From: Candidatus Hydrogenedentota bacterium
Lineage (GTDB): Bacteria > Hydrogenedentota > Hydrogenedentia > Hydrogenedentales > SLHB01
Direction: 5' to 3'
Length of the DNA: 64,000 nt
NCBI GenBank assembly: GCA_020848835.1
Contig: JADLHJ010000035.1
Coordinates: 62,001-126,000, forward strand
The position numbers were made by a program, and so were the translations under genes. Of the stretch, positions 32,348 to 44,182 are shown in pieces. The notes under the pieces were generated by a model that had not been told where the DNA came from, searched no databases, and was given only the letters and a program-made list of their open reading frames with translations. Within the stretch, counting starts at the first letter, position 1. Each line of letters opens with the position of its first letter.

Positions 32348-32377
32348 ACTGTATTCACAACGCGCGCGAGCAGTCAA
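32348..32377 (-). promoter_or_regulatory. Candidate promoter of the second oxidoreductase unit
   Basis: On the minus strand TTGACT (32372-32377), 18 bases, TACAGT (32348-32353). It overlaps the stop codon of the thioredoxin gene and suggests that the oxidoreductase-propeller-lipoprotein unit is transcribed separately from the MoxR cluster. Confidence 0.45.
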
Positions 32378-33168
32378 CCGGTCGCCGCTTCGGCCTTTGG
32401 CGTGTTGGCATCTGCCCAGGATGTCCATGCAGGTAGTGCGGCATCGCGGTCCGATTTGGCGCCCCACGGATCGAATTTCAAATCGGCAGCACCCGCCTTG
32501 CGCAATGCTTCAAGCGCGGTGATACGCACGCCGAGATAGTCGCTCGCCAACCCTGTCACAAGAATACGCAGCTTGCCGGTTTTTTCGTTTACGACGCGAA
32601 GCGCTTCACTGCGCACCTCTGGGTTTTGATCGCCGAGTAGTGTGACAATTTGGTCGTCCGGAGTTTCATCCGTGATGATCGGCTTTTCCACTTCGACGGG
32701 CACCGCGGCGGCTTTCACGTCCAGCATGCGCATGCCGCCGGTTTCGCGGGCAAGGTCGTTTTCCATGCCGGCGATAAATTCTAGAAAGGTGCCCAGCGGC
32801 ATATAGCCTGTTTGATCGCCGACGACTTCTCCGTGTGCGTTGATCGCAATGGTGCGCGGCATGGACTGAACGTTATAGGCAAGCGCGACATTCTGCTGTT
32901 TATCGACATCGACCTTTACACACACGAAATCTTTCAATGCGTTTACGGTGGAAGCGTCGGCGTACACCTCTTCGTCCAACCGTTTGCACCAGCCGCACCA
33001 TTCCGCAGTGAAATCGATCAGGATTGGTTTTCCTTCGGCCTTCGCCTTTTCAATTGACGCCGCGTAGTCCGTGCTCCATGGGATGCCTTCCGCCGCTTTT
33101 GCGCCAAGACTGAGCAGCGCCAGGAATGCGAAGAGTGGTAGAACTCTAGTTGACGCGCGTGAGGCCAT
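32374..33168 (-). CDS. Exported thioredoxin-fold protein with C-terminal HEAT-like helices
   Basis: 264 aa. Signal peptide (TRVLPLFAFLALLSLGAKA), then a thioredoxin domain with the redox motif AEWCGWCKRLDEEVY (Cys58, Cys61) and the cis-proline in VQSMPRTIAI. After about residue 165 comes a helical extension (DQNPEVRSEALRVVNEKTGK, YLGVRITALEALRKAG) like a short HEAT repeat. The start at 33168, with AAGGA eight bases upstream, lies inside the end of the preceding gene. Last gene of the MoxR cluster; it is the obvious candidate to reduce the cysteines of the two preceding proteins, which is inference from context. Confidence 0.85.
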   Translation of the reverse strand: MASRASTRVLPLFAFLALLSLGAKAAEGIPWSTDYAASIEKAKAEGKPILIDFTAEWCGWCKRLDEEVYADASTVNALKDFVCVKVDVDKQQNVALAYNVQSMPRTIAINAHGEVVGDQTGYMPLGTFLEFIAGMENDLARETGGMRMLDVKAAAVPVEVEKPIITDETPDDQIVTLLGDQNPEVRSEALRVVNEKTGKLRILVTGLASDYLGVRITALEALRKAGAADLKFDPWGAKSDRDAALPAWTSWADANTPKAEAATG

Positions 33169-34153
33169 CTTCGTCGTCCTTCTTCGTTGGATAGTTATTC
33201 TCGACTTGCTTTTGACGGAGTTCATTTACAAGCGCCGCAATCTTGGTATCGTCGGCGATATTTTCCATGAGTATTGTGACGGTATTTCTCTCGGCGACGT
33301 ACTGTCCGCCGATGTGCCGCAGATCGAGCTTGCCTACGGATTTGCCTTTGTCCGTCACGTACACGAGTGTCGATTTGTTCGCCGTCACCGCCTCGCCGGA
33401 GGGTTGCTCGACATCGCCGCCTATGATCGCATCGATCTCGTAAAACTGGTCCGCGATCGATTTCATGGCCTGCTCATTGGCAAATGCCAGCAAGACGATG
33501 AAATCGGCTTCGGTTTTCGCTTTAGACAGCACTGCCGCGATTGCTTGTTCTGGCGGGGCAATTTTCACGCCTTCTCCAATCTCGTCCGGAAGCAGCGTAT
33601 CGTCCAGCACACCAATCACCGCAGCGCGGTAACCGCTTTTCATGGTGACGATCTTGTATTCCGAAAAGATCGGCTTTCCATCGGCGCCAAGTACATTTGC
33701 TGAAATCATGAAAGGATACGTCTTCGCCAGTTCGTGTAACTTGGCCACAGGCAGTTCCGCTTCGCGCGCGCCAATGTTTACTGCGTCATATCCGATCTCT
33801 TTGTATCCGCGGAGGATATAGTCAAGCTCCAGCAGTTCCCATGCGCGCGTGCCCGCGGTATTGTTGCCGGCATCCACAATGAGCGAGTCGCCCTGCTGCT
33901 GTTGCGCAATGAAAGTCTTGCGCCGTGCGAGGCCGCCGGCGACGCCTGCGGTGCAGTTGCAGGGATTGATGTGGCCGCGCGTATCGCACGTGTAAAAGAC
34001 GCTGATAGAATCCGGCGGAGCCACGGAAGTCTTTTGATCCGGATCATCCACGCCGGTCTTATCGCCGCAGCTTGTCACAATAGACACGACCGTGAGCACG
34101 AACAAACGAATCGCGTTATTGCCAAGAAGATATTGAATACATGAACGCATCAT
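33146..34153 (-). CDS. 5'-nucleotidase-like lipoprotein lacking the metal ligands
   Basis: 335 aa. Lipobox VTSC (Cys29). The fold of the UshA/5'-nucleotidase metallophosphoesterase domain can be followed throughout, but each metal-ligand motif is changed: DTH becomes DTR (57-59), GD becomes GN (DAGNN, 94-98), GNHE becomes GARE (128-131), LSH becomes LAF (221-223) and GGHTH becomes GGDVEQ (245-250). Hydrolase activity is therefore unlikely. Instead it has TCDTRGHINPCNC, with Cys56, Cys65 and Cys67. The GGLARRKT block that follows is normal for the family. It overlaps the thioredoxin gene downstream by 23 bases and follows DUF4159 by five. Related exported proteins with a similar CxC element occur in Planctomycetes, from memory. 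Confidence 0.75.
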   Translation of the reverse strand: MMRSCIQYLLGNNAIRLFVLTVVSIVTSCGDKTGVDDPDQKTSVAPPDSISVFYTCDTRGHINPCNCTAGVAGGLARRKTFIAQQQQGDSLIVDAGNNTAGTRAWELLELDYILRGYKEIGYDAVNIGAREAELPVAKLHELAKTYPFMISANVLGADGKPIFSEYKIVTMKSGYRAAVIGVLDDTLLPDEIGEGVKIAPPEQAIAAVLSKAKTEADFIVLLAFANEQAMKSIADQFYEIDAIIGGDVEQPSGEAVTANKSTLVYVTDKGKSVGKLDLRHIGGQYVAERNTVTILMENIADDTKIAALVNELRQKQVENNYPTKKDDEDGLTRVN

Positions 34154-43148: not shown

Positions 43149-43153
43149 AGACT

Positions 43154-44182
43154 TCAGCGTCCCCGGTAGTCCGGTTCCTTCACGTTCTTCAACAATGTAT
43201 CCACGATCTGCGCGGAAGTTATGCCTTCACCCGCGGCTTTGTAGTTCGGTAAAATGCGGTGTTCAAACACAGGCTTCGCGATGGAGCGTACATCGTCGCA
43301 CGATGGCGACGGCCTGCCATCAAGCAGAGCGAGCGTCTTCGCGCCAAGCACGAGATACTGCGATGCGCGCGGGCCCGCGCCCCATTCCACGTACTCGTTT
43401 ACATAGGCGTTCTGTTTATCGCCACTGGGCCGAGAAGCTCGCGCGAGGTCGACTGCATATTCGAGCACGTGACTGGACACAGGCACGCGGCGCACCAGCG
43501 CCTGAAAGCGCAGCACTTCTTCTTTGTTGAACACGGGCCGCACAGTTGGAAATTCGGTCGTTGTCGTGTCGCTGACGATTTTTAATTCGTCTGCGCGATC
43601 GGGATACGAAATGTTGATGCTGAACATGAAGCGATCGAGTTGCGCTTCCGGCAACGGATACGTGCCCTCGTGTTCGATCGGATTCTGCGTTGCAAGCACA
43701 AAGAACGGCGGATCGAGATGATACGTCTTCCCTGCCGCAGTGACGGTCAATTCCTGCATCGCTTCGAGCAGCGCCGCCTGCGTTTTCGGCGGCGTACGAT
43801 TAATTTCGTCTGCAAGAATGAGATTGGCAAAGAGCGGACCCTTCACAAAGTTCATATAACGGTTGCCCGTGCCGGCATCCGTCTGTAGAATCTCGGTCCC
43901 GGTAATATCGGATGGCATCAGATCCGGCGTGAATTGGATTCGCTTGAAATCCCATCCCAACGCCTGGGCCAAAGTCTTAACCAGCAAGGTTTTGGCCAGC
44001 CCGGGCACACCAATGATCAGCCCGTGCCCGCGTGAAAACAGGGCCGTAAGCACCTCGCGCAGAATGCGGTCCTGCCCCACGATGACCGTGTGCAGCGCAA
44101 CCTTCAACTCCCGCACCTTTGCGGTGAATTCCTGTGCCGCCTCCACGTCGCCACGCTCGGTCAATGCTGGATTAACTGCCAT
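43154..44182 (-). CDS. MoxR family AAA+ ATPase
   Basis: 342 aa chaperone-type ATPase. Walker A is GVPGLAKTLLVK, Walker B is LILADEINRTPPKTQAALLE, sensor 1 is FFVLATQNPIEHEGTYPLPE with the family-specific AQLDRF (arginine finger region), and a C-terminal lid domain follows. MoxR proteins drive assembly or activation of enzyme complexes, often with metal or cofactor insertion, as known for MoxR, NorQ and CbbQ. First gene of the eight-gene minus cluster; GGAGG lies close upstream of the ATG. The plus-strand RRM gene diverges 333 bases away. Confidence 0.94.
   Translation of the reverse strand: MAVNPALTERGDVEAAQEFTAKVRELKVALHTVIVGQDRILREVLTALFSRGHGLIIGVPGLAKTLLVKTLAQALGWDFKRIQFTPDLMPSDITGTEILQTDAGTGNRYMNFVKGPLFANLILADEINRTPPKTQAALLEAMQELTVTAAGKTYHLDPPFFVLATQNPIEHEGTYPLPEAQLDRFMFSINISYPDRADELKIVSDTTTTEFPTVRPVFNKEEVLRFQALVRRVPVSSHVLEYAVDLARASRPSGDKQNAYVNEYVEWGAGPRASQYLVLGAKTLALLDGRPSPSCDDVRSIAKPVFEHRILPNYKAAGEGITSAQIVDTLLKNVKEPDYRGR

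Follow-up and report, generated by a model that had tools for sequence, protein, structure and literature searches.

The 64,000-nucleotide stretch of DNA studied here (hereafter, the window) lies on contig 35 of a 6.13 Mb Candidatus Hydrogenedentota genome and carries a cluster of eight genes that, on balance, probably encodes an envelope thiol-redox (thiol-electron) machine, driven by a MoxR/Bat-type ATPase and supplied with electrons by a route that differs among lineages. The eight open reading frames (ORFs) run in one direction on the minus strand, from 44182 to 32374, with almost no gaps (intergenic distances of 5, 2, 0, 61, −4, 5, and −23 bases in gene order), as described in an earlier annotation made from the letters alone (hereafter, the sequence-only reading). 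In this order, they encode a MoxR ATPase, a DUF58 protein, a BatA-type protein with a von Willebrand factor A (vWA) domain, a second vWA-like protein, a DUF4175-like protein, a DUF4159 protein, a pseudo-5'-nucleotidase with a CxC motif, and a thioredoxin (genes 1 to 8). Among the loci compared, the ATPase, the vWA proteins, and a cysteine site in DUF4159 are the constant part, and a thiol or electron-transfer module is the variable part (37/46 loci). The module consists of a thioredoxin plus the CxC protein in the window, and of a CxC-tetrahaem fusion or a thioredoxin-HEAT-glutaredoxin-DsbD/CcdA-like fusion in other lineages. From this combination of a constant ATPase, vWA, and cysteine part with a variable redox module, we infer a machine in which module and DUF4159 exchange electrons.

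The family-level relatives of the window organism are Candidatus Hydrogenedentota metagenome-assembled genomes (MAGs). An orthologous DUF4159 gene was found in 7 of the 25 family genomes, and in all seven a gene 7 homologue (hereafter, UshA-like gene) adjoins it. All eight genes occur in the same order in the six family genomes whose contigs leave room for them (the window included; in one of these loci MoxR is truncated by the contig end), and the seventh contig starts within gene 5 and carries genes 5 to 8. As the eight-gene order is kept in 6/6 genomes with room, the grouping is not due to chance.

A wider survey, based on two peptide patterns, returned 85 matches, 54 of them relatives. These 54 named loci belong to Hydrogenedentota, groups of Planctomycetota and of Verrucomicrobiota, Kiritimatiellota, the PVC group, Capsulimonas (Armatimonadota), Chthonomonadaceae, and a few unplaced bacteria. 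The cluster is found again in Hydrogenedentota, in Planctomycetota, and, lacking gene 7, in Verrucomicrobiota and Kiritimatiellota. The gene order MoxR-DUF58-BatA-vWA-DUF4175-DUF4159 is recurrent, and the full five-gene front is present in 27 of the 35 named loci with at least 8.5 kb upstream. Downstream, among the 46 loci with at least 4 kb, we found a thioredoxin-type gene in 36, a UshA-like gene in 15, and either of them in 37. Apart from a frame read antisense to DUF4159, no additional gene family is common to more than 5 of the 54 named loci. In three loci (L102 8942-14860, L105 2896-9306, and L113 8318-14617), the cluster is succeeded by a giant protein of about 2,000 residues, and the one in L105 has HEAT repeats.

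We also searched 199 evenly drawn Planctomycetota genomes and 145 Verrucomicrobiota genomes; scoring was limited to the 8 to 20 best first-look candidates of each genome, and the resulting counts are lower bounds. The Cys-rich DUF4159 is present in at least 14/199 Planctomycetota genomes (best E 1e-70 or lower), a count that leaves out 12 long-frame genome matches with E near 1e-31 to 1e-33. By coordinates, the UshA-like gene adjoins DUF4159 in 7 of the 14, lies elsewhere in 3, and was unseen in 4. Ten of the 14 stretches were read, and the CCCC motif of DUF4159 was found in 10/10 and the full five-gene front in 8/10.

Gene 6 matches DUF4159 with 90.4 bits (PF13709 cut-off 25.9) and has seven cysteines, C44, C57, C128, and C206-C209 (CCCC), all invariant across the seven family orthologues. 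Among 55 aligned DUF4159 rows, C57 and C128 are kept in 55/55 and the whole CCCC in 53/55, the other two rows being cut short there; C44 is kept in 50/55, a value inflated because one of the survey patterns includes it (C57, C128, and CCCC are in neither pattern). Outside the family, identity to the window protein drops to 40-58%, so the conservation of the cysteines far exceeds the background. CCCC is missing from twelve paralogous DUF4159 stretches in this family (plus-strand reading). The structure model (predicted local distance difference test [pLDDT] 87.8) best matches the solved relative Hoch_4089 (4i66, Z 21.1), which shares family and fold with the window protein but lacks CCCC and C128 in the aligned region, whereas the window protein has both. 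The next matches (Z 7.7-9.7) are class-I glutamine amidotransferase, ThuA, IFT52, and glycosidase-domain folds. C57, C128, and C206-209 come after strands of the central sheet in the model, which suggests that they may share one pocket. DUF4159 thus combines a GATase-like fold with an export-type N-terminus and an almost unchanging cysteine site. Two loci show other DUF4159 forms: in one MAG (L098 9923-10531) the frame stops straight after CCC of the motif, through either a sequencing error or a real break, and in L147 (G284:C1) a second copy without CCCC stands beside thioredoxin-type genes, with the MoxR part absent from the fetched stretch.

The best NCBIfam match of gene 7 is NF041198 (UshA_like_PCGU), at 133.7 bits and thus below the cut-off of 275, and its top fold match is the Escherichia coli 5'-nucleotidase (1ush, Z 31.5). 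In profile alignments to 2z1a and UshA, the motifs DxH, GNHE, and GGH, which we take to be the metal-ligand motifs of true 5'-nucleotidases, are replaced by DTR, GARE, and GGD. An active phosphatase or nucleotidase is rejected because the ligand motifs are replaced, and the earlier description of gene 7 as a ligand-less metallophosphoesterase is borne out. The CxC motif (C65-x-C67) is invariant in the seven family orthologues and kept in 18/18 gene 7 rows, and the lipobox cysteine is present in 7/18 rows only. In the model, the motif lies in or beside a low-confidence loop (pLDDT below 50 for residues 66-70).

The relatives of gene 7 indicate what the motif may do. Among 17 UshA-like proteins in named loci, all 13 from outside the window family carry four CxxCH motifs and the 4 family members none; the five non-family proteins that were scanned all match Cytochrome_C554. 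This tetrahaem-fused CxC protein was found in Planctomycetota, in one Armatimonadota locus, and in another Hydrogenedentota. In other Planctomycetota stretches, all 19 additional UshA-like ORFs carry four CxxCH plus PCxC. Furthermore, five Planctomycetota loci (L157-L161) carry tandem pairs of UshA-cytochrome genes outside the cluster, in which one copy has CG-TGA and the other VCGC. The TGA falls exactly at the second cysteine position (PCG-TGA in four loci and TCG-TGA in one), and this in-frame codon fits a putative selenocysteine position of a CxU family. UshA-like proteins are indeed listed as a CxU selenoprotein family in the available excerpts of PMC2398784 and PMC13188914. Since the motif can be selenocysteine and relatives are fused to four haems, the CxC of gene 7 looks like a redox-active dithiol rather than the supplier of metal ligands that the sequence-only reading had made of it. 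No cluster gene was found in the stretches of the five CG-TGA copies; among the ten loci read for selenocysteine within a MoxR cluster, the three of cluster type (L154, L162, and L163) have cysteine. Compared with NF041198, gene 7 covers the same fold region, with PCxC in place of PCxU, and is without the tetrahaem tail that its cluster relatives have. In one genome (G083, which also holds L110), the UshA-cytochrome gene is split from DUF4159 and has its own MoxR gene nearby (L128 9080-12940).

Gene 8 has a thioredoxin score of 60.5 bits (PF00085), and its C58-xx-C61 pair is invariant in the seven family orthologues. In Verrucomicrobiota, Kiritimatiellota, and some unplaced PVC loci, the gene 8 slot is occupied by an ORF of about 1,400 to 1,600 residues, with a thioredoxin-like start, HEAT repeats (seen in the three sequences scanned, L076, L089, and L098), a glutaredoxin-like GCxxC domain, and a membrane domain. 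We aligned 13 of the 25 long thioredoxin-type ORFs listed, the rest being without the membrane tail, early-ending (L082, at a contig end, and L084), or other proteins. In the membrane part, the motifs NPCAFA and C-T-G-Q are invariant in 13/13 (ACTG/PCTG-type cysteines), and hhalign aligned it to 16 DsbD/CcdA domains with 94.5% probability (E 8e-8), both cysteines being paired. The membrane domain thus appears to be homologous to the DsbD/CcdA electron channel. Pfam detected Glrx-like in 6/13 and Glutaredoxin in 5/13 of these sequences. A sequence comparison of the DsbD-like region with the PDB gave only thioredoxin- and glutaredoxin-like matches, in its first part, so that the likeness to DsbD/CcdA is supported by the profile comparison. 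What is shared is a final domain with both intramembrane cysteines; here the domain is fused to the thioredoxin-HEAT-glutaredoxin part within a MoxR cluster. It is absent from the cluster of the window, whose organism has a separate DsbD gene on another contig.

Among the 145 Verrucomicrobiota genomes, the fused form (1,434-1,577 residues) lies 3.0-3.4 kb downstream of the Cys-rich DUF4159 in five of the seven that have this gene, and it was not found among the candidates scored in the other 138 (Fisher 4e-8). In 16 other Verrucomicrobiota genomes, matches are confined to frames of 376-608 residues, and the match in one of these genomes (G412) is strong. Five loci (L074, L075, L080, L085, and L096) carry two conserved genes (about 535-585 and 405-655 aa) after the thioredoxin-HEAT gene, and the L080 copies, which were scanned, have no Pfam match. 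Considering all rows, the thioredoxin CxxC is kept in 32/41, lost in 7, and unaligned in 2, and six of the seven that lost it carry the glutaredoxin-DsbD tail. A thioredoxin as the universal partner of DUF4159 is weakened as a candidate, the CxxC being lost in these 7/41 rows while CCCC persists. Overall, the cysteine motifs singled out by the sequence-only reading are kept across orthologous clusters, this CxxC being the least constant.

Taken together, these observations can be arranged into a mechanism. Electrons would pass between the lineage-specific modules and the cysteine site of DUF4159, which would act as a shared carrier or as a client-facing centre. ATP hydrolysis by MoxR, relayed through DUF58 and the membrane vWA proteins, would remodel DUF4159 or its client, and this remodelling would let the cysteine site be loaded or released. 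The presence of a DsbD-like channel in relatives points to reduction as the usual direction, with electrons moving from the cytoplasm to the envelope; in the window organism, the separate DsbD could feed gene 8. A specific version is possible, and we put it forward tentatively: at the expense of ATP, MoxR, DUF58, and the membrane vWA proteins would load or unload a six-cysteine DUF4159 carrier, which would receive electrons from interchangeable modules (a thioredoxin, a selenocysteine-type CxC protein with a tetrahaem cytochrome, or an integral glutaredoxin-DsbD channel).

Several results weigh against this proposal. The cluster is patchy even among close relatives (7/25 family genomes), the complete five-gene front is absent in 8 of the 35 named loci with enough upstream sequence, and 9 of 46 loci have no adjoining redox gene. 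Seven genomes lacking such a gene were searched, and two have a gene 7 relative elsewhere and five none at E 1e-10. The loss of the thioredoxin CxxC described above is a further point, as is the fact that Pfam DsbD models, applied singly, match only 1/13 long gene 8 sequences. The profile of gene 7 matched in at least 95/199 Planctomycetota genomes (E 1e-30; about 63 near full length and the rest partial), and among these the UshA-like gene adjoins the Cys-rich DUF4159 in only 7; in nine Planctomycetota UshA-like stretches read directly (L134-L142), the other cluster genes are absent. As the family is mostly found outside the cluster in this phylum, the link of the CxC-cytochrome protein to MoxR is optional. 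The sequence-only reading, which had the Cys proteins accompany MoxR, is right for most of the loci examined; the contrary case that it named, Cys proteins without the MoxR part, applies in part, through the gene 7 family in Planctomycetota and the loci with an incomplete front. In favour of the proposal, the distance matrix of DUF4159 is in agreement with those of five further genes (r 0.80-0.90, 0/999 permutations each), but shared descent alone would lead one to expect this. Also the literature offers contrary points: the excerpts of PMC2398784 set UshA-like apart, together with SelD and FdhA, from the families whose Cys-based redox motifs are conserved, and according to the part of PMC3557215 consulted, loss of batABD in Leptospira biflexa gave no oxidative-stress phenotype.

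Metal binding by DUF4159 is a serious rival to a redox relay. The whole alternative, which we consider rather unlikely, is that its cysteines bind a Zn, Cu, or Fe-S-like centre, that MoxR and the vWA proteins insert it, and that the thioredoxin keeps the ligands reduced. Six of the cysteines are invariant wherever a row reaches them, they are retained in rows whose N-terminal thioredoxin no longer has its cysteines, and, following the central-sheet strands in the model, they could share one pocket. MoxR/vWA pairs are, moreover, described as inserting metal in the excerpts of PMC13036017. However, the selenocysteine counterpart of CxC and the haem fusions fit electron transfer better than metal supply, and no constant metalloenzyme client is seen, because no other family is common to more than 5/54 named loci. 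The sequence-only reading had proposed the assembly of a metal or redox centre. This is partly supported: the CxC looks like a redox-active motif and not a metal-binding one, and the cysteines of DUF4159 may hold a metal.

A second alternative, sulfur handling, is improbable. The CxC protein and DUF4159 would carry persulfides or sulfur derived from thiosulfate, in the way that SoxB acts on sulfur bound to SoxY, and the cytochrome would remove the electrons. The SoxB fold match of gene 7 (2wdc, Z 28.9 versus 31.5 for the top match 1ush), its SoxB profile matches (NCBIfam 1.3e-14, PDB 5e-10), and the haem protein fused in its relatives are all coherent with this. However, fold similarity alone does not show function, the metal-ligand motifs are replaced, Pfam and NCBIfam show no SoxYZ-like carrier among the eight genes of the window, and the sole match to a rhodanese-bearing model (seleno_TsoB) goes through its thioredoxin part.

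We give equally little credit to an ordinary Bat-like stress operon, in which MoxR, DUF58, and the vWA proteins act on other envelope proteins and the redox genes merely co-reside. The redox genes are lineage-variable and absent next door in 9/46 loci, and the CxC-cytochrome protein is often outside the cluster, as passengers would be. However, the DUF4159 cysteines are kept at 40-58% identity outside the family, and the redox modules fused onto the same gene slots differ from lineage to lineage. A defence system is discarded: the PADLOC matches are weak (LmuB at 3.8e-4, within the coiled-coil-like region of gene 5, and HEAT at 3.5e-6) and none is dedicated, and DUF58, DUF4159, BatA, and thioredoxin do not occur, by term search, in the eLife paper on MoxR conflict systems (PMC7159879). 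As for the MoxR-vWA-beta-propeller ternary conflict system, gene 1 scores just over the cut-off of the bpMoxR model (30.8 vs 27), but the propeller partner is absent among the eight genes (Pfam).

The gene assignments are collected below.

Table. The eight genes of the MoxR cluster, with positions in the window
Gene	Product	Coordinates	Strand	Basis
1	MoxR-type AAA+ ATPase, 342 aa	43154..44182	-	Pfam AAA_3 7.9e-61; Walker A GVPGLAKT
2	DUF58 protein, 329 aa	42159..43148	-	Pfam DUF58 2.8e-46, VWA_2 5.9e-8
3	BatA-type protein	40012..42156	-	Pfam BatA 4.8e-14, VWA_2 2.6e-7; NCBIfam two_anch 8.2e-13
4	Second membrane-anchored vWA-like protein, GATase1-like region	37759..40011	-	MIDAS motif and hydropathy
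5	DUF4175-like membrane-anchored protein, 948 aa, GTG start	34851..37697	-	Orthologue matches and conserved position
6	Exported DUF4159 protein	34159..34854	-	Pfam DUF4159 1.4e-25; Cys conservation; structure model
7	Pseudo-5'-nucleotidase lipoprotein with C65-x-C67	33146..34153	-	NF041198 7.3e-39; fold match 1ush
8	Exported thioredoxin (WCGWC)	32374..33168	-	Pfam Thioredoxin 1.8e-16; orthologues

The identities given earlier to MoxR, DUF58, BatA-vWA, DUF4159, and thioredoxin are backed by Pfam. Those of genes 4 and 5 hold in part. Gene 4 has a DxSxS motif (MIDAS DQSAS, residues 86-90) and no vWA match in the Pfam scan; its GATase1_like match is sub-threshold (1.5e-5, 25.1 bits vs a cut-off of 27). 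The gene 5 protein of the window, part of which is coiled-coil-like, is unsupported as DUF4175 by Pfam, and three of seven orthologues match PF13779 (DUF4175), the best at 3.8e-5. Motifs and hydropathy give gene 2 a vWA-type MIDAS (DRSAS) and no predicted membrane segments, which are also absent from gene 1; gene 3 has the MIDAS DASLS, two N-terminal and one C-terminal membrane-like segments, and a weak Pfam match to ABC_transp_aux (0.0027). Genes 3-5 all have membrane-like segments and genes 6-8 a hydrophobic N-terminal segment (hydropathy), which we interpret as a signal peptide or, for gene 7, as a lipobox. The sequences thus point to the envelope location already proposed. The start of gene 8 is most likely the ATG at 33168, and the protein has a short, weak HEAT-like tail (Pfam HEAT 0.0017).

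Around the cluster, a glycine-rich protein that by eye resembles an RRM RNA-binding protein starts divergently just upstream of moxR (44366-44845, plus strand). On the other side, gene 8 is followed by a Gfo/Idh/MocA-type oxidoreductase with a twin-arginine-like start (31016-32305, minus strand), which is also next to the cluster in a same-genus genome (L057) and has no match in the other five family loci, and then by a TolB/PD40-type beta-propeller (29976-31037, minus strand) with no match in the six other family loci. Upstream of MoxR, the Pfam scan gave no match in L089 and a GDSL-lipase match below the cut-off in L107. Two additional BatA-type loci are present in the window genome (G000), on contigs C67 and C114, and Rfam and tRNA scans of the window were empty.

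A description of the cluster was not found in the literature searched, whose coverage leaves out most subscription papers. DUF4159 is not named there, DUF4175 does not occur among the MoxR-related matches listed, and no paper was found that joins MoxR with DsbD, with DUF58 and Planctomycetes, or with von Willebrand, thioredoxin, and Verrucomicrobia. What may be new here is a MoxR/Bat-type operon with dedicated redox modules, possibly an undescribed machine for bringing electrons to extracytoplasmic thiols. The cluster provides the DUF4159 family with a functional lead. It also ties MoxR/Bat relatives, in several phyla, to proteins with a chemistry partly readable from sequence (an almost unchanging cysteine site, a CxC motif with a selenocysteine counterpart, a multihaem cytochrome c, and a DsbD-like channel), which makes the redox function directly testable.

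Among known systems, NorQ/NorD and RavA/ViaA share with the cluster a MoxR ATPase and a vWA partner, as far as the excerpts available describe them, and NorQ/NorD is presented in PMC13036017 as a MoxR/vWA pair for metal insertion into nitric oxide reductase. In the window, the vWA proteins of genes 3 and 4 are instead membrane anchored, and nitric oxide and fumarate reductase families are unmatched (Pfam) in the eight genes and their two downstream neighbours. BatD is part of Bat (Bacteroides aerotolerance) operons. The window cluster has in common with these operons MoxR, DUF58, and a BatA-type two-anchor vWA protein in one direction, and the envelope location; it differs in that BatD is unmatched in the eight proteins (Pfam at 0.01) and in the addition of the DUF4175-like protein, the Cys-rich DUF4159, the CxC pseudo-nucleotidase, and the thioredoxin, with DsbD-like modules in relatives. 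The role of MoxR/Bat operons in the envelope is described as still unsettled in the part of PMC3557215 consulted, which also reports the proposal, after Tang et al. on Bacteroides fragilis, that Bat proteins reduce oxidised proteins or export reducing power. A thiol-redox machine would fit that old proposal and, if true, would turn the 1999 suggestion of Bat-exported reducing power into a concrete pathway.

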